Assembly (NCBI GenBank): GCA_017470935.1 | Contig: JAFUXG010000009.1 | Coordinates: 1-42,362 of the forward strand | Reading direction: 5' to 3' | Origin: Lachnospiraceae bacterium | GTDB taxonomy: Bacteria; Bacillota; Clostridia; Lachnospirales; Lachnospiraceae | DNA length: 42,362 bases | Part shown: in pieces, positions 1,785 to 42,199 of the stretch | How the letters are laid out: every line of letters begins with the position of its first letter | How positions within the stretch are numbered: position 1 is the first letter of the stretch | Position numbers and translations under genes: made by a program | The notes under the pieces: generated by a model | Database searches by the model: none | What the model was told of the DNA's origin: nothing | What the model saw: the letters and a program-made list of their open reading frames with translations, nothing else

Positions 1785-1904
1785 ACACCTTGTTCTCCAT
1801 CATAGCTCTACATTATTTCCGTTCATATATCAATTAATCATCACTTATGACATGATGATCCTTTACATTAAGAAATGCAATATCCCTAACCTTAAGACAT
1901 CCGA

Positions 1905-1997
1905 TACCATGTCGCCCGGCTGGTTCATGGAGACATTCGCAAAATATCTTCGATTGTATACAAACATACATAGAAGCCACTTTGCTCATTGTACCAT
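1905..1997. repeat. Palindromic element, copy C (87-bp period, divergent)
   Basis: TACCAT at 1905-1910 recurs at 1992-1997, a period of 87 bases. Between them the order of blocks matches the copy at 27764-27858: GTCGCC at the left, CATTCGCAAAATAT in the middle, a small hairpin (TGTAT/ATACA) and CTTTGCTCATTG at the right. The hairpin stem differs from the other copies by paired changes. It lies between the stop of the VanW gene and the start of the AIR-like gene, so it is part of the latter's upstream region. Confidence 0.7.
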
Positions 1998-2007
1998 AAT
2001 CTTTGTG

Positions 2008-3810
2008 TTAAGATATCAGATACCTTGACGCATTCTTAATCCTTTCAAAGATCATGCTGATGGTATTACTGCTTCCCTCCGGTGTTGCAGGCTCTGCAGC
2101 AGGCACCTCTGTAGCAGGTGCCTCTGTGGCTGGCGCTTCAGTGGCAGGCGCCTCAGTAGTATCTTTATCCTTATCCTTCTTCTTACTATCTGAGTCATCC
2201 TCATCTTCCTCGTCCTCATCCTCATCTTCCTTTTCCTTAGTTCCGATTCGAATCTTAGCCTTTGTTGCATTGTATTTACTTCTTCCGTAAGGGATCAGAT
2301 CACACTCTGTCTCCTCACCATCAACTGACACATGCTTATACACCTCCACATAATAGCCTGTATGCGCCTGTGTCTCTGTAACAGTCTTTCCCTCCTCCAA
2401 GGTATCGTCCTTAACCTCCTCCGGATCACCGGGTTCATAGGTCTCAACTGTCTTTGACTCAAAATATATCGTTCTGTTAGAAGGTCTTGTCTCATGGCCG
2501 TATATGGCAAAGGAGATGCTTCCTCCACCTGCATAGCCCTCTATGTATATAGGATATTCTGTGCTGTTAGTAAACTTGAAATCCATGTAATCACCGGCGA
2601 TGGCAGCATCCATTCCAAGAGGAACATAGGATACTGTAAGAGAATGGGGATATCTCTCATCCACCTGAAGCTCTGCCTGCAATACCGCATTATATAATGT
2701 GGTACTGACCTGGCATATTCCTCCGCCCAGTCCGTCCACCAGCTCATCATTAACATATTGGCCTGCGTTAGCATATCCATTCTCCTCAGTAAATGGAGAT
2801 ACAGTGTTAAACACTGAGAATTGTTCTCCCGGCATAAGCACCGTACCGCTTATCTTACTGGCACCATTGGCAAGATTCTGGGCACGGCTGGCAGTACCGC
2901 TGTACTGTGTCTGCTTCTGTCCCAATACTGAATCAATCTTTTGGAAATCCTCAGTAGTATATTGAGGCTGCTTCTCCTCAACCACAGCAGGAATTCTCAC
3001 ATCCTTATTCTTCCATACATCTCCAAGAAGCTCCTCCACTTCCTTGATGGTATCATCAACCTGTACAGTTGTTCCCACAACACCATCTGTTATAACAAAC
3101 TCTCCATCGACCCTTGAAATGCTGGCATTCTTAGGCTCTGTAACAACGCTCTCTGCCTCAGCCTCAATAAAATCCCTAAGCTTGCTCTCACTAAAGGTCT
3201 TCTCTGGCACAAGTATTGTATTGTCCTGTTCAAGTCCCTTTATCTCCTTATATCTGCAAAGAATATTGCCTCTTCTTCCGTAGCCAAGTGCCACGTCAAC
3301 TGCATCCTCTGCCGACACGTCAATCCCGATATCCTTAAATGTGGTGCTGAAGGATCCGTTTGCAGTGGTAAATGTAAGCTGCAGCCTGTCAATGCCCTTA
3401 ATATATGAACTGTATTCCTCTATCGCTTCAGCCCTTGTAAGTCCTCCCACATATACATCATCCAGATATACACCGGAATAAATAGTATCCGTATCGCTCC
3501 ACGAATATGAAGCGCTTCCTCTTGTAACTCTTGTGACATTACCCGCTTCGGTGGATATCTCATTATCATCTGAAGCATTGTCGCCAGTGTCCTTATCACC
3601 AGTATCCTCAGAGGAAGCTTCCTCTGTCTCAGTGTCACCACTCACATCTGCGCCCTGATCAGCCACTGCCTGAATAACATCTCCTTCATCAGCACCTGTC
3701 TCCTCGCTGGCAAATGATGTGTATGCTCCTGTACCTGCTGCTCCGATAACCAGCAGCGCTGCCATTAATTTAATTAAAGCTTTATTATTTCTATATTTTA
3801 TATTCTTCAT
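2008..3810 (-). CDS. VanW family protein with PG-binding and G5-like domains
   Basis: A secreted or membrane-anchored 600-residue cell-surface protein. A basic start and hydrophobic segment (about residues 10-35) form a signal anchor. An acidic spacer follows, then a YoaR-type putative peptidoglycan-binding region (about 85-190), a VanW domain (about 285-420, with MPGEQFSVFNTVSPFTEENG and GLGGGICQVSTTLYNA), and a G5-like domain (about 440-515). The C-terminus is a Glu/Asp run, a Lys/Asp run and four APATE-type repeats. VanW is linked to glycopeptide-resistance clusters, but most copies outside them are uncharacterised wall proteins. I chose the ATG at 3810 (MKNIKYRNN) because AGGA lies eight bases upstream; an earlier in-frame ATG at 3825 overlaps that site. 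Confidence 0.88.
   Translation of the reverse strand: MKNIKYRNNKALIKLMAALLVIGAAGTGAYTSFASEETGADEGDVIQAVADQGADVSGDTETEEASSEDTGDKDTGDNASDDNEISTEAGNVTRVTRGSASYSWSDTDTIYSGVYLDDVYVGGLTRAEAIEEYSSYIKGIDRLQLTFTTANGSFSTTFKDIGIDVSAEDAVDVALGYGRRGNILCRYKEIKGLEQDNTILVPEKTFSESKLRDFIEAEAESVVTEPKNASISRVDGEFVITDGVVGTTVQVDDTIKEVEELLGDVWKNKDVRIPAVVEEKQPQYTTEDFQKIDSVLGQKQTQYSGTASRAQNLANGASKISGTVLMPGEQFSVFNTVSPFTEENGYANAGQYVNDELVDGLGGGICQVSTTLYNAVLQAELQVDERYPHSLTVSYVPLGMDAAIAGDYMDFKFTNSTEYPIYIEGYAGGGSISFAIYGHETRPSNRTIYFESKTVETYEPGDPEEVKDDTLEEGKTVTETQAHTGYYVEVYKHVSVDGEETECDLIPYGRSKYNATKAKIRIGTKEKEDEDEDEEDEDDSDSKKKDKDKDTTEAPATEAPATEAPATEVPAAEPATPEGSSNTISMIFERIKNASRYLIS
2099..2158. repeat. Four tandem 15-bp repeats in the VanW gene tail
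   Basis: Four head-to-tail 15-base units (2099-2113, 2114-2128, 2129-2143, 2144-2158) with a consensus close to GCAGGCGCCTCAGTA encode the APATE-type repeats of the surface protein. The unit length preserves the frame, so copy-number changes would lengthen or shorten the stalk without breaking the protein. Confidence 0.9.
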
Positions 3811-3984
3811 AATCATCATCCTCATATATTATACTATATACTCCTGCCATCCAATCCTTGCACATACATCTTACATGGTAACTTCTTTCATTTCTGCAGT
3901 CTCATGCTTTATTATCCCATATGCTTAATTGATTTGACAAGAGAATCACTATTATGTATCATTTATATTATTAAGGAATGAATT

Positions 3985-22874: not shown

Positions 22875-24635
22875 ATGAACGGTTATGATAACAACGGACT
22901 TGGCAGCAGCGGCTTGGAGGACGAAGCAGGTGTAACAGCTTTTGGCAGTCAATATAATAACAATTATGAAAATGCCGGACAGTCCTTTGATGATTCGGAA
23001 TATGCTGGCGATGGATATGCCAGTCCTGGCAACACCAATACAGAATTCAGTGACCAGAGCTATAATAACGCTGGTTATAATAGTGCAACTTACAGCAGCG
23101 AAGGCTATGACAATACTGTATATGATAATACAGGTTACGGCAATACAGATTCTAATAACAGCGGCTATAGCAATTCCAGTTATGGCAATGAAGGTTATGA
23201 CAATACCGATTACAATAACAGCGGCTATAGCAATTCCGGTTATGATAATCAAGGCTACAACGGTAATTACGAGAACACCGGATATAGTAACAGCGGTTAT
23301 GATAACCAGCAGGGCTTGAATCTTGATTTCAACACAAAACCGATGAAGAAAACCACAGAAGACAGCAGGCAGACAGCCCCCTCTAAGGGCAGCAGCAGCC
23401 AGGATTTCACCGGAGTTGACGAGGACTTTGCCAAGGCAACAGAAAGCACTCTCCAAGCCTTAGGAGACGAGCTTACACCGGCAGAGATTGAGGATATGAA
23501 GCGTGAGAAGGCTGCCAGAAGAAGAAAACGCATGCTTCGCGAAAAGAAGCGCAAGGAGCGCATGCGTCAGGCAATCATACGCTGTACCCTTCTTGCAATT
23601 GCAGTTATACTTGTGATAGTGATAATCGTTAAGATATTTGCCGGTATCGGAGGTCTGATCAAGGGTGCAAAGAAAAAGCATGCCACCACTACCGAATCAG
23701 TTTCCACCGAGGCGACCACCACCGAGGAGCCTGTTGCCTCAATTGACGAGGAGATAGTTGCAAAGGAGCTTCCTGCAACAAGAGAGGAAGCACTTGAAAT
23801 GCTCAAAGCCCAGGGTGAGACAGATTCAGATATCAATAACATAGTGGAGAATGAAGCTGTATATCCTGATATTATGTTAAAGCACCTAGCAGTCAATTCA
23901 GAGCTTATAGATTTTGCCCTTAATTATCCCGCCAAGATCAGTATACCCTTCGATGGAGATTTCAGTATTGAGGCTGAAGCCAATGAAATGTCCCTGCTTA
24001 TGCAATATGATCCTGAATGGGGCTATGCAGACTATGGCGATACTGTTCTTGGTCTTAACGGAGCTGCTCCTACATGTCTCTCAATGGCATACATATACCT
24101 TACCGGTGACGGAACAAAGAATCCTATAATTATAGGTGATTTCAGCATGGAAAAGGGTTATCTTGATGAGAATGGCAATACTGACCATAAGCTGATGACA
24201 GAGGGCGCTGAAGAGCTTGGACTTGAATCCAATGAATTAGACATAGATAAGGATAATCTTATAGGTGCTTTAGATGAAGGCAATGCAGTAATATGCGAGG
24301 TACTTTCCGGCGACTTTACCAAGGAGAAGAGCTATATAGTAATATCTGACTATCGTAACGGCTTCTTCTATGTAAATGATCCCACAAGCCGGGCAAGAAG
24401 CCAGGTTGGCTGGGACTTCAAGAGACTAAGCTCACAGATTTCCACCATGTGGTCATTAAAGCGTGGAAGTGCTGCAACAGTAACAGATGATGCAGAGGGC
24501 ACAGCAGATACAGAGGGAGCTGACGGCGTATCACCAGAGGGTACCGATGGCGGCACAGCCGACGGAACCGGTGATGGCAGCACAGACGGTACTGATGGTA
24601 CAGATACCGGCAATACAGACAATGGCACAGAATAA
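22875..24635 (+). CDS. Membrane-anchored C39-like protein lacking catalytic residues
   Basis: A 586-residue protein with an odd layout. Residues 1-155 are Asn/Tyr/Gly/Ser repeats (NSGYSNSGYDN type). A strongly basic helix at about 205-233 (KREKAARRRKRMLREKKRKE) leads into one transmembrane segment (234-258), so the repeat domain should be cytoplasmic. Outside lie a Thr/Glu linker and a C39 peptidase-like domain (about 370-525) with LLMQYDPEWGYADYGD, LSMAYIYLTG and FYVNDPTS. The usual GCGPT is G396-A-A-P-T here, so the catalytic Cys is Ala, and the usual His before the IV-strand is Ser486 (EKSYIVISDY). C401 is displaced by four residues. It is probably a non-enzymatic binding domain. The tail is Gly/Thr/Asp-rich. 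AGGTGGG precedes the ATG. Confidence 0.83.
   Translation: MNGYDNNGLGSSGLEDEAGVTAFGSQYNNNYENAGQSFDDSEYAGDGYASPGNTNTEFSDQSYNNAGYNSATYSSEGYDNTVYDNTGYGNTDSNNSGYSNSSYGNEGYDNTDYNNSGYSNSGYDNQGYNGNYENTGYSNSGYDNQQGLNLDFNTKPMKKTTEDSRQTAPSKGSSSQDFTGVDEDFAKATESTLQALGDELTPAEIEDMKREKAARRRKRMLREKKRKERMRQAIIRCTLLAIAVILVIVIIVKIFAGIGGLIKGAKKKHATTTESVSTEATTTEEPVASIDEEIVAKELPATREEALEMLKAQGETDSDINNIVENEAVYPDIMLKHLAVNSELIDFALNYPAKISIPFDGDFSIEAEANEMSLLMQYDPEWGYADYGDTVLGLNGAAPTCLSMAYIYLTGDGTKNPIIIGDFSMEKGYLDENGNTDHKLMTEGAEELGLESNELDIDKDNLIGALDEGNAVICEVLSGDFTKEKSYIVISDYRNGFFYVNDPTSRARSQVGWDFKRLSSQISTMWSLKRGSAATVTDDAEGTADTEGADGVSPEGTDGGTADGTGDGSTDGTDGTDTGNTDNGTE
23101..23260. repeat. 60-bp coding repeats in the Asn/Tyr-rich domain
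   Basis: The block AATAACAGCGGCTATAGCAA recurs exactly 60 bases apart (23154 and 23214), and the AAGG-TATGACAATAC block recurs at 23101 and 23191. The repeats encode the Asn/Tyr/Gly-rich N-terminus of the C39-like protein and are in frame. Confidence 0.85.
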
Positions 24636-27717: not shown

Positions 27718-27763
27718 ATTATCAACTCCCTTCTACTACAATTCATAATTCCATCAAATATAA

Positions 27764-27858
27764 TATATCATGCCGCCTAGCGGCTCCATGTGGTCATTCG
27801 CAAAATATCCGATTTTGCACGCAAGCGTGCAAATCGGCTGCTTTGCTCATTATATCAT
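27764..27858. repeat. Palindromic element, copy A (87-bp period)
   Basis: TATATCAT at 27764-27771 recurs at 27851-27858, a period of 87. The left part holds GCCGCCTAGCGGC, a small palindrome. The right half is a strong hairpin at 27809-27837 (CCGATTTTGCACGC with GCGTGCAAATCGG). It lies in the 253-base gap between mntA and the 27971 membrane protein, and that gap is filled mainly by this element and the next one. Confidence 0.88.
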
Positions 27859-27951
27859 GTCAACTAAATTCGCACTTCGTGCTCATTAAGGTGCCAGATA
27901 TAAGTTCTACTAAGGTTCGCTTTGCTCACCAAGTAGAAACTATTATATCAC
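27851..27951. repeat. Adjacent related palindromic unit (93-bp period)
   Basis: Immediately after copy A, TATATCAT (27851-27858) is followed 93 bases later by TATATCAC (27944-27951). The unit has its own hairpins (GCACTTCGTGC, and AGTTCTACT near 27904 with AGTAGAAACT near 27931), plus TTCGCTTTGCTCACC, which resembles the right end of copy A. It appears to be a second, different member placed head to tail and sharing the boundary word. Confidence 0.6.
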
Positions 27952-27970
27952 AAAACAAACAATATATAAA

Positions 27971-29515
27971 CTATAAATCTGATAAATCATGTCCTTCCTT
28001 TTCCTTCTTGATGGCGATCCCCACAAGCACAACACCTGCTATGAAGAGATATACCCACCACTCGATGGAAAGCCAGAACTCTCTGGTAAGATAAAGTGCA
28101 AGGAGTGACAGTGTAGCCGATGAAGCGATAACATACTCTCTGTGATTCTTAATTGCTGCCACCACAAGCATTACGATACCTGCTATTCCAAGGAACATAA
28201 GGCAGATAAGCTCCTCTACTGCAAGATTGTGTAACAAAAGTACAAGCAGTGTAACGCATGTGAGTATGAACTGTGCCATGCGGATTCCCTTTGCCTTATC
28301 ATACCAAATGATTCCCAAAAGAACAATCCCTGCACCGAAGAAAAGACTTCCTGCCTCTACCGCAAAATAATCAAGGTCCAATGCTGCAACAAGGAATAAT
28401 GCTGCAAGTTCACCGAAGAATAAGGTGAATGTCTTCATGATCCGCTTTGCTGTATCATTTACTATCACAGAATCAACAGATGCAAATATGAATGCGAACA
28501 TGACAGAGCTTGCCATTGCCGCTAAGTATAATATATCCCATGAAAGACTATGGAACCATTCTGTCTTTGCTAACGCAAATAATGAAACCTCAAGTAACAC
28601 CATAAGTCCGTGAACAACCGCAAGCTTAACATACTTATCTCCTCTTTCCCTGTACCACATTACACCTAAGCTTATTGCGGATGCCGTGGCATAAGGCACA
28701 AGTGAATATAAATGAACATTGTCATGCTTCCATGTTTCAAAGCCTGCAAATATCTGACAAAGCACTGACAGCCAGTTAACTGCCAGCACCATAGCGGTAA
28801 GCTCCACTCTTTCAAGAAGTACCATTAAGATAAGGTCAATTATAAATGCTGCAAAGAGCCACCATTTAAACACATCACTGTTAAAACTTACATCATACAT
28901 AAATTTATGCAGCTCACAAACAAAATAAGTATTTGTCGCTAAAAGCCCTATGCTCTGTGCAATTCTGTACCCGATATGCTCTGTTTCCTTATACTTAAAT
29001 GTTATAATAAGTGTAAGTGCAACAAGGGGAATAACGCCTGCCAAATCATTAACGCTTGCATCAAACACAAGGAAAAACATTACTGTCAATATGGTCGAAA
29101 GAATCCCGAAATCCCACACCTTTCTCTCCTTAAAGAATCGATATGCAATTCCTATTCCCGCTGCAAACAGTCCCCACATTGCCCGGTCTGCGTTATTAAA
29201 GGTATTAGAAACACCAATGTAATCAATGTATCCGTTCACCGTGTCCCAGCCACCTAAGAATGATACAGTAACGAAGCCTGTTCCTGCTGACGCCAGGTAG
29301 TACAGTGCATGCTCTGTCTTTGTAAGAATCCCTTTTTCCCTAAGCTTCCATGTTACCACATAAAGTCCTGCCACTACGCATGTGAGTATCATCTGTTTTC
29401 CTGTCTCGGATAAATGCTGCCACGCTGATGTGACGAAGATACTGCCGGCTATCAAAATGAATATGACGCCTACCACCAGCAATAATGTTGAAATTTGATT
29501 TTTCTTCTTTTCCAT
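27971..29515 (-). CDS. Polytopic membrane protein, DUF2157-like
   Basis: A 514-residue protein consisting almost wholly of hydrophobic helices (about 16-18). The N-terminus (STLLLVVGVIFILIAGSIFV, then TSAWQHLSETGKQMIL) resembles the start of DUF2157-type membrane proteins, which in Lachnospiraceae are often large and uncharacterised. Charged cytoplasmic residues close the C-terminus (KKEKEGHDLSDL). There is no catalytic motif I can name. I start at ATG 29515, with GAGAGGTG six bases upstream. The frame continues ten codons further without support. No function is assigned. Confidence 0.72.
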   Translation of the reverse strand: MEKKKNQISTLLLVVGVIFILIAGSIFVTSAWQHLSETGKQMILTCVVAGLYVVTWKLREKGILTKTEHALYYLASAGTGFVTVSFLGGWDTVNGYIDYIGVSNTFNNADRAMWGLFAAGIGIAYRFFKERKVWDFGILSTILTVMFFLVFDASVNDLAGVIPLVALTLIITFKYKETEHIGYRIAQSIGLLATNTYFVCELHKFMYDVSFNSDVFKWWLFAAFIIDLILMVLLERVELTAMVLAVNWLSVLCQIFAGFETWKHDNVHLYSLVPYATASAISLGVMWYRERGDKYVKLAVVHGLMVLLEVSLFALAKTEWFHSLSWDILYLAAMASSVMFAFIFASVDSVIVNDTAKRIMKTFTLFFGELAALFLVAALDLDYFAVEAGSLFFGAGIVLLGIIWYDKAKGIRMAQFILTCVTLLVLLLHNLAVEELICLMFLGIAGIVMLVVAAIKNHREYVIASSATLSLLALYLTREFWLSIEWWVYLFIAGVVLVGIAIKKEKEGHDLSDL

Positions 29516-29687
29516 AACGAACACCTCTCTCTTATCTTTACACACTGCATGTCGAGCCTATAGGGAATGCTTATACACTCTTAATTACATATTACCTGTA
29601 AGTGCTTCACATGCATTTCATTCTTTGTTCTGATATTAATATACAAAATGCGGCGTCCATTTGTTAGATGTCATTTGTCACAACAGG

Positions 29688-38593: not shown

Positions 38594-38618
38594 TTTGTTA
38601 CATCCTCCTATTCTAATT

Positions 38619-38664
38619 CAACATCTTTGCTGTGTCTCTTCTAATCACCTTAACAAAGATGCTG
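38619..38664 (-). promoter_or_regulatory. Hairpin in the trpB leader
   Basis: On the minus strand CAGCATCTTTG and CAAAGATGTTG form an 11-bp stem, with one G-U wobble, around a 24-base loop. The wobble works only in minus-strand RNA (the plus strand has an A-C mismatch), which supports a role in the trpB leader. No T-run follows, so it is not a simple terminator. The remaining 38665-38757 is AT-rich. Confidence 0.45.
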
Positions 38665-38757
38665 TTTTTTATAATTAATTTAACAATGTAATTATTGTAT
38701 TGTTGCTAACAATTTTCTACTATGGATATACCCATATATATTCTATATCACATGTTA

Positions 38758-39591
38758 TCATTCTTTAATCCGTGACAGACACCAGACGAATGCCTTCCCA
38801 GTCCTGATATCCGAATCCCTGAAATGATTTCCCTCATTCCATTCAAGTATGGATCTCACCTTTTGGTCTTCCAACATTATATCATGTCGCCTATCGGCTC
38901 CATGTGGACATCTTCGTTCCACTTCGGTCGGCGCAGAACCAATGTCCACTGGACATTGTGCGCCGCAAAATACCCGATCTTGCACACAAGTGTGCAAATC
39001 GGCTACTTTGCTCATTATATCATACTGTTCACGGATGCAGTCACCAACTCTCGCCATGACCTTGTTCTTGGTTTTTTCCTCCTTATCCCCAAGACTAAGA
39101 TACACAGCACCTGCTTTGATGTCATGCGCCTTTGCATAATCTATCCATCCTGGAAACCATACAGAGGGCGAGGCTGCAGCAATTCCATAAAACCTGTCAG
39201 TCTCATACCCACACCACAGCGAGAACAGCGCCGCAAGGGAATAACCGCCAATGATGATCGGAACATCACTTGACAGACCACACCGGTCCAGCACATCAGG
39301 GATCAAACACCTTTTTATAAATGAAAGGGTCTGATCGGCACCGCCCTTAAAGGACTCCTTCCCAAAGACAGGCTCCGCCTTCCAGGGTGACAGCTCCCCA
39401 TTCCAGTCATTTATCCTTAACGCTGCAAGGGCAAAGGTCTCTCCCGCCTCATTCACAATATATTCCACCTGCTTGTCAAGAAGCTCTGTATCATGCTCAT
39501 CCACAGGCTGTATGAGAATACATTCAATATTGTCACAGCTATATAATATACATTCCTTGTTTTCTAAATTATAAGTTGTTTTGTTCATCAT
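38758..39591 (-). CDS. Alpha/beta-hydrolase esterase with in-frame repeat insertion
   Basis: A 277-residue alpha/beta hydrolase. The nucleophile elbow is IIGGYSLAALFSLW (Ser about residue 120), followed by AASPSVWFPGW, VYLSLGDKEEKT with the likely acidic partner, and WNEGNHFRD with the catalytic His near the C-terminus. This layout recalls small EsteraseD-like enzymes. Between EQYDIM and LEDQKV, 46 residues are encoded by a dispersed palindromic repeat (38876-39023); without them the chain would be about 231 residues. The insert falls between the acidic and His regions and leaves the frame open. I take ATG 39591 as start, but its ribosome site is weak (GGTTGGGA), and another repeat fragment lies just upstream. 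The gene may be functional or decaying. Confidence 0.75.
   Translation of the reverse strand: MMNKTTYNLENKECILYSCDNIECILIQPVDEHDTELLDKQVEYIVNEAGETFALAALRINDWNGELSPWKAEPVFGKESFKGGADQTLSFIKRCLIPDVLDRCGLSSDVPIIIGGYSLAALFSLWCGYETDRFYGIAAASPSVWFPGWIDYAKAHDIKAGAVYLSLGDKEEKTKNKVMARVGDCIREQYDIMSKVADLHTCVQDRVFCGAQCPVDIGSAPTEVERRCPHGADRRHDIMLEDQKVRSILEWNEGNHFRDSDIRTGKAFVWCLSRIKE
38876..39023. repeat. Palindromic element, copy B (138-bp period), inside the esterase gene
   Basis: ATTATATCAT at 38876-38885 recurs at 39014-39023, exactly 138 bases (46 codons) apart. The ends match copy A: ATCATGTCGCC..GGCTCCATGTGG at the left, and CCGATCTTGCAC..GTGCAAATCGGCT and CTTTGCTCATTATATCAT at the right. A 51-base middle section, absent from copy A, forms a nested hairpin (GGCGCA at 38930 with TGCGCC at 38959; inside it CAATGTCC with GGACATTG). 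The right hairpin occupies 38974-39002. Confidence 0.92.
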
Positions 39592-39630
39592 TCCCAACCA
39601 TATAATCTCTTATATGTCTCACCTTTGCCC

Positions 39631-39730
39631 ATTATATCACGTCGACTGTCGTCTCCATATGTTCATCTGTTCATCTTCGGTTCACTCCGATTCCCGGAGA
39701 ACCAATGTCCACAGGAGATCATGCGCCGCC
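39631..39730. repeat. Palindromic element, copy D (partial, long form)
   Basis: ATTATATCACGTCGACTGTCGTCTCCATAT and, further on, the GAACCAATGTCCACAGGA and ATGCGCCGCC blocks match the left end and middle hairpin of copy B, but the right hairpin and right boundary are missing. The element stops where the ttcA coding end begins, and the ttcA stop and last few codons lie in the GCGCCGCC block. CACCTTTGCCCATTATATCAC just before it looks like the right end of another copy. Confidence 0.72.
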
Positions 39731-40897
39731 AGAGTGCGTTTCACGCATGTCATAGTCATCAAGAAAATGATGCTTTACCCCATCCTGCTTATATGCTATC
39801 ACAGTGGAGAGATTCACATTCTCCACACTTCTGAATATATTCTTCTCGATCACAGGGTCCTTTGCTGCCAGCTGCGCAATAAGCGCCTTTATCTCTGCCC
39901 GCTTCGAGCCCTTCTCAGTTCCACCGCAGGAGGCGCAGCTTTCAGTAAACCGGCAGGCACACTGTATAAAGTGTAAATGGTTATAATCCCTCCAATGCTT
40001 TATCGCTGCCTCCCTTACAAGATAGAGAGGGCGTATAAGCTGCATCCCCGGGAAGTTGGTGCTGTAAAGCTTTGGCATCATGGTCTGCACCTGCCCACCA
40101 TATAGCATTCCCATTACAATGGTTTCTATAACATCATCATAGTGATGTCCAAGAGCAATCTTATTACATCCAAGCTCTTTTGCCTTGCTGTAAAGATAGC
40201 CTCTTCTCATTCTTGCGCAGAGATAACAGGGAGAGCCCCCAATATCATCACCTGCCACAACGTCAAATATATCATTTTCAAACACAGTAATAGGAACATG
40301 CAAAAGCTTTGCATTATCCTTGATGGTCTGATAATTAATATCATTATAGCCCGGATTCATCACAAGAAAAACGACTTCAAAGTTTTTCTTCCCATGTCTT
40401 TCAAGCTCCTGAAAAAGCTTTGCCATGAGCATGGAATCCTTGCCACCCGAGATACATACAGCAATCCTATCCCCATCCTGAATCATCTCATACTCATTGA
40501 TTCCCCTTGTAAATGGGCGCCATATATCCTTACGGAACTTCTTGACAATGCTTCTCTCCACATCCTTGTAGGTAGTGTCATTCTCATCAAACTGAGCCAT
40601 CCTGTCAGCTAACACCTTACGCTTATAAGCCTGGAATCCACTCTCCACAGCATATATCTCATAGCCCTCAGCCTGCATGTTGATTGCAATCTCGGCAGCT
40701 CTTATATCAGTATAGCATATAAGATAGATGGGCTTGTCCTTTGGAAGCTCAGCAATATGTTCATTCCACTCTTCCCAATATATATTAACAGCACCGGGAT
40801 AGGTCTCCCTTCGGTAATCCTCTGATCTACGCACATCCACGATCATCTTATCCCTGCTGTCGCCTTCCATCTCGTCAAATGTGACCATATGTTTCAT
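39719..40897 (-). CDS. ttcA: Rhodanese-TtcA fusion, tRNA 2-thiocytidine synthase family
   Basis: A 392-residue fusion. Residues 1 to about 105 are a rhodanese domain with DVRRSEDYRRETYPGAVNI and an active-site loop LICYTDIRAAEIA bearing the sulfur-carrying Cys. Residues about 115-392 are a PP-loop ATPase of the TtcA family: AVCISGGKDSMLMA, GSPCYLCARMRRGYL (first CxxC), GHHYDDVIET, and CASCGG late in the chain, giving the three-to-four Cys needed for an iron-sulfur cluster. The enzyme thiolates a tRNA cytidine; the rhodanese can supply sulfur directly. The stop codon lies in a repeat fragment (copy D), so the last residues (SGGA) may be repeat-derived. The ATG overlaps the stop of a small upstream frame. 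Confidence 0.9.
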   Translation of the reverse strand: MKHMVTFDEMEGDSRDKMIVDVRRSEDYRRETYPGAVNIYWEEWNEHIAELPKDKPIYLICYTDIRAAEIAINMQAEGYEIYAVESGFQAYKRKVLADRMAQFDENDTTYKDVERSIVKKFRKDIWRPFTRGINEYEMIQDGDRIAVCISGGKDSMLMAKLFQELERHGKKNFEVVFLVMNPGYNDINYQTIKDNAKLLHVPITVFENDIFDVVAGDDIGGSPCYLCARMRRGYLYSKAKELGCNKIALGHHYDDVIETIVMGMLYGGQVQTMMPKLYSTNFPGMQLIRPLYLVREAAIKHWRDYNHLHFIQCACRFTESCASCGGTEKGSKRAEIKALIAQLAAKDPVIEKNIFRSVENVNLSTVIAYKQDGVKHHFLDDYDMRETHSGGA

Positions 40898-41963: not shown

Positions 41964-42059
41964 GATTCCACTAATTCCTTTATTACTTATTCCCCCTACT
42001 GTATTTAACCACAAATGCTCTTCTAAATCAAGAGTTTAAGGTTACTAAAGACTTCATAA

Positions 42060-42199
42060 AATTACTGTTTAGTGAATTTTTGTTTTTGTATCACGTACGC
42101 AGGTAAACTGACAGCATGGTGCGTTTTATATGACTTTCTGTACGGTGATAAGAGTTTCTAAGTATCCCGGTAAAGCTTTGATGACGTACGCGGCAAGGT
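42060..42199. repeat. Right arm of dispersed inverted repeat (copy R2)
   Basis: This is the reverse complement of bases 1-140 with about ten substitutions. The match begins at AATTACTGTTTAG and ends at CGGCAAGGT, the mirror of the first base of the window. No open frame of note is present. Confidence 0.88.

Follow-up and report, generated by a model that had tools for sequence, protein, structure and literature searches.

Palindromic repeats inserted in frame into genes are known above all from Rickettsia. Elsewhere, REP sequences and the GTAG- and CGTC-tagged repeats are mobilised by RAYT (Y1) transposases. Tyrosine-recombinase elements of the Tn916/CTnDOT type use conservative site-specific recombination of a circular form, and have a short variable sequence at each end, next to a half-site common to element and target.

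Passages of two published accounts describe Rickettsia palindromic elements (RPE) as palindromic repeats of ~100–150 nt that lie in frame in unrelated protein genes and are read as extra peptide (PMC10969869, PMC3733652), and a section of the review among them calls the effect of such inserts on the proteins unexplored (PMC10969869). REP are presented, in part of one of these sources, as small dispersed hairpins at gene ends that give flanking open reading frames (ORFs) their stop codons and are sometimes intragenic (PMC3733652). In excerpts of the same literature, QMITE2 is placed mostly in 3′ untranslated regions (PMC10969869), and enterobacterial copies of ERIC/RU are reported to occur inside genes (PMC10969869, PMC2759123).

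Here we describe an in-frame insert in an esterase gene within a 42,362-nt stretch of DNA from a Lachnospiraceae bacterium (hereafter the window, meaning the whole stretch analyzed). The insert very probably represents one copy of a mobile element of Lachnospiraceae-type bacteria that is small, modular and free of genes (~70–136 nt, two to three hairpin modules), carried by the esterase as a tolerated passenger.

Results

An In-Frame Insert in an Esterase Gene

Within an open, minus-strand frame of 279 aa, 148 nt at 38876–39023 carry ATTATATCAT at both ends. The features of the locus are as follows:

38758..39597, minus strand: host gene, alpha/beta-hydrolase (ORF), 279 aa with the insert and 233 aa without it
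39015..39020, minus strand: left copy of the repeated 6-mer ATATAA, with TATG before it (end alignment)
38883..39014, minus strand: inserted element proper, 132 nt, TGAGCAAA...GGCGACATG in coding orientation
38965..39011, minus strand: hairpin C, a long stem whose arms vary, usually capped by a CTTG loop (alignment of copies)
38912..38963, minus strand: optional module B, ~51 nt (modular matches; approximate boundaries)
38883..38904, minus strand: hairpin A, with the CATGGAGCCGATAGGCGACATG end (fold and copy alignment)
38877..38882, minus strand: right copy of the repeated 6-mer ATATAA (end alignment)

The net gain is 138 nt, in frame, which adds 46 aa to the esterase; once these nucleotides are excised from the ORF, EQYDIM abuts LEDQKV and the protein reads ...IREQYDIM-LEDQKVRSILEWNEGNHF.... 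An earlier note, made from the sequence alone, had described a 138-bp in-frame unit here, with the Ser and His motifs of the host intact and a Cys- and Arg-rich inserted peptide, and had proposed a check against orthologues. The analysis agrees on each of these points: the host frame is intact across 233 codons, the GYS and GNHF motifs (the latter the probable catalytic His motif) are retained in the alignment, the Cys/Arg-rich peptide has four Cys, and the 46 residues are missing in 16 of 16 non-self homologues (15 other genomes) that aligned across the junction in tblastn with the collapsed protein. The boundaries of the unit were refined, in that 138 nt stands as the net gain and consists of the 132-nt element proper plus one repeated 6-mer, with the ends of the element set from the six-base block and the gltD comparison described below.

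The homologue search covered 98 genomes and gave a match at E ≤ 1e-10 in 17, of which one was the window's own and one (G007) matched via the repeat only. A full alignment of the 16 homologues has an identical gap in all of them, and the collapsed esterase is one residue longer than most; the closest homologue shares 54% amino acid identity, and the absence of the insert there is seen at the protein level. The Pfam Esterase model (PF00756) gave E 0.015 and 15.5 bits against the host, under its curated cut-off of 22. The host family profile matched 2qm0 BES (E 6.2e-9) and IroE-like chains, and in this profile comparison the family resembles BES/IroE-type esterases.

A repeat search restricted to the local 700 nt returned nothing, the repeat being visible only over the whole window. 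That the 46-aa in-frame insert is real and not chance was confirmed in its own genome, as the same DNA matches 35 stretches there (E ≤ 0.001), the best other copy being 95% identical over 146 nt.

Distribution of Copies

A covariance model built from 17 copies gave 71 matches at E ≤ 0.1 in the window genome, opposite-strand shadows included, and curation left 52 copies in this draft assembly (75 contigs, 78% complete). Matches were present in 25 of 26 same-genus genomes, the window genome among them, and totaled 264 in the 26 genomes, again with shadows; in a sampling of the family they occurred in 29 of 200 genomes and 28 of 199 genera. Of 31 pattern matches, most were in uncultured Lachnospiraceae and other Clostridia of rumen and gut, and the two that fall in unrelated phyla may be chance. 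Viral contigs held no exact pattern match, the pattern covering part of the family only, and a similarity search of plasmid and phage records found no similar DNA.

For the analyses below 121 copies were kept (52 + 69, out of 58 + 78 model matches), which are a subset of all copies. Fifteen matches were excluded: ten were shadows of the palindrome on the opposite strand, three scored ~25–30 bits, and two, at 44 and 45 bits (L102, L170), were omitted inadvertently. The rule used to flag tandem copies is crude and mislabeled a few (e.g., L067).

Besides the esterase copy, the window holds three further model matches, unmentioned in the earlier note:

39629..39723, minus strand: second copy, diverged, 33.7 bits (model), 73% by blastn
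27760..27859, minus strand: third copy, short form without module B, 114.2 bits (model)
1899..1998, minus strand: fourth copy, 70.4 bits (model)

The second lies between the esterase and the gene upstream and overlaps the 3′ end of that rhodanese/ATP_bind_3 gene (39719–40897, Pfam), whose last codons and stop it appears, from the sequence, to supply. The third is located ~110 nt past the end of the gene at 27971–29545, and the fourth directly after a VanW/PG_binding_4 gene (2008–3825, Pfam).

Other repeats were also observed. A 141-nt inverted repeat, 93% complementary, occupies positions 1–141 and 42059–42199, near both contig ends, and the assembly was perhaps broken at this repeat. Tandem repeats with a 30/60-nt period lie at 23089–23308, inside ORFs on both strands. 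Two copies (L073 and L082) have their flanks in common too, as would follow from duplication of a larger block.

Modular Build and Fold

The copies are modular, consisting of hairpin C, the optional module B, which also occurs alone, and hairpin A; a search for a large autonomous copy by way of its A hairpin gave 39 matches in the window genome. The insert folds markedly better than shuffled sequence: the coding strand at 38870–39030 reached −64.9 kcal/mol against a shuffle mean of −41.4 (z −7.0, 0 of 200 shuffles as low), and the opposite strand of the insert also folds well (z −5.2). Among the 17 sequence-aligned copies, 95.9% of pair cells were standard pairs and 14 of 26 pairs showed changes on both sides (12 of 19 in hairpin C), where shuffles averaged 8.3 and 1 of 500 was as high. 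Sliding the pairing partners abolished this covariation signal. As judged from the aligned copies, the fold of the element is better conserved than its sequence. A known Rfam RNA was rejected as an identity for the element on the lack of a model match, none being found at E ≤ 1 in window positions 38600–40000 and none at E ≤ 0.1 in 7 loci.

At three loci of the window genome (L012, L014, L015; contigs C58 and C54) module B stands alone, in tandem with short host-derived pieces, and by eye adjoins apparent tRNA-gene ends; module B seems to be a second repeat family nesting in the first. Four other loci (L099, L133, L146, L187) are head-to-tail arrays of two to three units with a period of ~78 or 87 nt and a common 6-nt junction, and such arrays could gain units, or lose them precisely, by slippage between the repeats.

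In-Frame Copies in Other Genes

The earlier note had also suggested a search for further intragenic copies, and a second one was found in frame inside gltD of a congener (G013; TIGR01317, 622 bits, matched as two stretches), a well-conserved enzyme gene whose frame is intact with the insert. A strong gltD match was present in 19 of the 26 genus genomes, and DNA was aligned for 11 of the 18 others: all 11 are without the insert at the DNA level, the gap being exactly 78 nt in ten and 84 nt in the remaining one (L247). The occupied site reads TTTG-AAAAAA-[72 nt]-AGAAGA-T, its two 6-mers being unlike (AAAAAA left, AGAAGA right), and the empty sites read TTTG-AGAAGA-T in G004 and TTCG-AGAAAA-T in the window genome, with larger differences in the others. 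On the protein, the insert of 26 residues maps between chain residues 284 and 290 of PDB 7mfm.

In a third case, an HD-domain protein of the same congener, the element is fused in frame at the C-terminus: the protein terminates in ...EEHERMSKGVASVLARESDTFAIENTESTDDGKE, its last 29 residues being element, read in the same frame as in the other cases. Two relatives keep the target (CATG-AGAAAA-TGA) and then continue differently, the left side alone being comparable.

These three genes are the only recognisable ones read through by in-frame copies among the 121 examined. All three insertions are sense and in the same phase, and the gene length before the element is 583 nt in the esterase, 859 nt in gltD and 1990 nt in the HD-domain gene. 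The other copies are intergenic, at gene ends, or in short ORFs unconfirmed as genes. A 393-aa frame in G007:C425 was rejected as an intragenic case, as it spans the end of one gene to the start of the next and the copy is thus intergenic. Ten distinct opposite-strand ORFs of at least 120 aa run across copies, and none was counted; of the six that were checked, five had no Pfam family and the sixth had two Pfam matches below the cut-off. Also left out of the count were short read-ins before a stop at L124 (+13 nt), L185 (+26 nt) and L138, where genes read 13–32 nt into the copy and so acquire a short new C-terminus from the element.

Further Loci Compared With Relatives

Twelve further loci were compared with relatives. 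At six (L061, L151, L158, L084, L076, L087) the conserved gene end runs on and relatives are without the element. This supports no more than the left boundary, since the intergenic sequence on the right has diverged beyond alignment. At two (L124, L152) relatives are also occupied, and four (L179, L153, L156, L199) could not be judged. At L061 some relatives also bear the element or remnants, and the element ends in T rather than G, as in its target; at L151 the occupied gene has ATG before the 6-mer where five relatives have ATC, ATT or ATA. Both loci carry the relatives' own gene sequence at both ends (GGGGAG at L061, AAACAG at L151), but they decide little since the start of another unit follows each and the right copy could stem from an array. 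The single copies at L084, L076 and L087 have identical 6-mers that are one to two bases off those of relatives.

The same gene junctions were seen to bear the element or remnants in several species (L061/L171/L275/L276, L124/L278/L279, L152/L298), indicating that some insertions are old or that some sites are hot spots.

End Signature and Target Motif

Ends could be anchored at TGAGCAAA and GACRTG in 105 of the 121 copies; 67 were scored as single, and 65 were left after dropping one duplicate and one copy at a contig end. In these 65, the six bases just outside the element agree between the two ends of one copy beyond the level seen between copies. Summed over all six columns, within-copy matches number 290 of 390 bases versus 238.7 by permutation, and the 6-mers are identical in 17 of 65 pairs versus 4.45 expected (0 of 20000 permutations as high), the remaining 48 being non-identical. 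Three columns carry most clearly (48, 49 and 46 matches versus 37.7, 32.6 and 27.5 expected; p < 0.0005 each), followed by a fourth (p 0.0125) and a fifth (p 0.057), and the sixth is nearly invariant and without signal; the lowest p among 22 columns outside the block was 0.041.

The left flank is mostly TRTG (T in 44, A or G in 50, T in 53 and G in 52 of 65), and T follows the right 6-mer in 39 of 65, so the usual form of the ends is T-R-T-G-N6-[element]-N6-T. The right end of the element (RTG) itself resembles the left flank of the target (TRTG), and tandem units have one N6 junction in common. For a putative target-site duplication, the gltD gain corresponds to 72+6 nt, and some loci suggest 6–8 nt; owing to the odd ends at L151 and L061 the repeated length may lie anywhere in that range. 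Terminal inverted repeats were absent, the terminal 15 nt matching at 3.38 positions versus 3.51 in shuffles (105 copies), and a MITE with inverted ends was rejected for lack of them.

Placement at Gene Ends and Reading Frame

Among copies with sufficient flank, 40 of 100 have an ORF of 80 aa or longer on their own strand that ends between −60 and +30 nt of the left end, compared with 12 of 101 for the other strand, and for 15 of those 40 the target motif itself contains the start of the stop codon, at −8, −3 or 0. Copies thus favor gene 3′ ends in sense orientation. The stops offered by the target, TG-A at −8 and N6-TGA at 0, close two sense frames and leave one; in the esterase, ATG-ATA-TAA-T is concealed in another frame within the codons TAT GAT ATA ATG.

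Net lengths fall into the three classes of codon phase as 43, 24 and 38 of 105 copies, multiples of three being the 43. One sense frame is open through the element's own composition, in the 138-nt and 87-nt forms alike, and 30 of 105 copies would be readable in that frame versus 1 and 7 in the other two. Antisense, 25–35 of 105 would be readable per frame. No antisense in-frame case was found in a recognisable gene (six of ten candidate ORFs tested), and because the antisense strand is equally readable, an open frame alone is insufficient for the sense bias, which must stem mainly from targeting or other selection.

Discussion

Origin of the Insert

Observed in this study are the dispersal of the copies, some of them near-identical, empty sites in gltD DNA and in esterase proteins, the agreement of six bases at the ends, and sense copies at gene 3′ ends. 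To explain them, we infer an enzyme acting in trans, probably recognising folded hairpins, that would insert the element at TRTG-N6-T-type motifs through an exchange staggered by 6 nt. Two sense frames of the motif, (R)TG-A...TGA, contain stops, and occasionally the motif would lie inside a gene in the third frame; a copy landing there, with a length of 3n and no stop, would allow the gene to survive, lengthened by some peptide. On this view the esterase insert, which lies directly ahead of the GNHF segment, would be a tolerated passenger and not a selected domain, and the in-gene cases look like survivors of chance hits, that is, tolerated accidents.

Other origins of the insert fare less well. 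An ordinary lineage-specific insertion, host sequence expanded in tandem, or an artefact of assembly at a repeat is extremely improbable; the genome is a draft and repeats can break assemblies, but dozens of unrelated places match the segment, a single gene accounts for both flanks, and the same kind of insertion occurs in another genome whose relatives are without it. That the peptide is useful and selected, as a new loop or for metal or partner binding via its four Cys, is very unlikely. Its Cys/Arg-rich make-up, the open frame in both the 138-nt and 87-nt forms and the use of one frame in three proteins would suit such a role, but the family shows no constraint of net length to 3n, 3 of 121 copies are in-gene, and there is wide divergence among the three inserted peptides, since hairpin C changes in sequence but retains its pairing. 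The esterase might instead be decayed or dispensable, its in-frame retention being coincidental, and this we regard as unlikely: the gene is patchy (17 of 98 genomes, counting its own and the one matched through the repeat) and the element's own make-up keeps one sense frame open, yet the 233 host codons, the similarity to the best homologue and both motifs are preserved, and the gltD copy sits in a well-conserved enzyme with its frame intact.

Mode of Integration

For REP/RAYT mobility the Y1 transposase (PF01797) was searched: there were 0 matches in the draft window genome, and it was also missing in G004, G001 and G012, which have 38, 23 and 19 element matches and are drafts as well, so that absence is not absolute. 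Y1_Tnp was present in 13 of the 26 genus genomes, including the copy-rich drafts G013, G008, G006 and G007. Mobility of this kind was rejected on its absence from the window genome, G004, G001 and G012. This leaves either of two chemistries: a staggered cut of 6 nt made by a transposase, or site-specific recombination across a 6-nt overlap.

The same element could move by conservative site-specific recombination of a circular form, in which case the 6 nt would be an overlap (coupling) sequence, one 6-mer from the donor and one from the target, and not a duplication; we consider this a realistic, if somewhat improbable, account. The RTG end of the element and the TRTG flank of the target are alike, as expected of two half-sites, terminal inverted repeats are absent, and tandem units have one N6 junction in common; in gltD, AAAAAA, common in the family, stands on the left and AGAAGA, as in G004, on the right. 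Against it, L061 and L151 have relatives' sequence at both ends, as a duplication leaves, but an array may explain the right copy, and the ends of L084, L076 and L087 are identical and within one to two bases of relatives. These identical 6-mers lean toward a staggered-cut transposase; the unlike gltD 6-mers, the pairs that are not identical (48 of 65) and the common RTG half-site lean toward site-specific recombination.

Returning to the mobile element as the source of the insert, we tentatively propose, as plausible and falling a little short of probable, that these family-wide, gene-free hairpins use a mechanism undescribed for elements so small, a structure-guided integration at TRTG-N6-T at gene 3′ ends that leaves a 6-nt repeat without terminal inverted repeats, third-frame insertions becoming new peptide. 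If such a new mode of integration is true, then, with stops in two frames of the target, insertions would either land past a gene and do no harm or, in the third frame, yield in-frame peptide. A member brought into culture would open up the questions of how such hairpins move and how often peptide is added to working proteins.

Comparison With Known Systems

A literature search, with most subscription journals outside its coverage and so weak evidence of absence, found no paper on such an element in Lachnospiraceae among the entries listed. By the observations above it is a small mobile palindromic element that differs from both RAYT-borne REP and inverted-end MITEs. It shares with REP the form of a small dispersed hairpin adjoining gene ends; unlike REP, its copies are flanked by a six-base repeat and built of modules, and the window genome, G004, G001 and G012 have no Y1_Tnp, which other copy-rich genomes do have. 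Like the MITEs (Correia, RUP, ERIC/RU, QMITE2) it is a short non-coding mobile element, but it has no terminal inverted repeats and no parent IS was recognised. A 6-nt overlap-like region at its ends may recall elements of the Tn916/CTnDOT type, from which it differs in being ~70–136 nt and gene-free.

There is also a likeness to RPE, as the earlier note had proposed. The parallel holds in that a short palindromic repeat lies in frame within unrelated genes (esterase, gltD and the C-terminus of the HD-domain protein). It does not extend to frequency, as just 3 of 121 copies lie in frame in genes here, versus nearly half for RPE in the sections of the published accounts drawn on. Further differences are the six-base end repeat and the preference for gene 3′ ends measured here, and the Lachnospiraceae-type host. 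The element resembles RPE in effect, and works like them by analogy of outcome. The same outcome is now seen in gut-type Firmicutes, together with insert-less relatives, an end signature and a target motif that would explain which frame can be entered.
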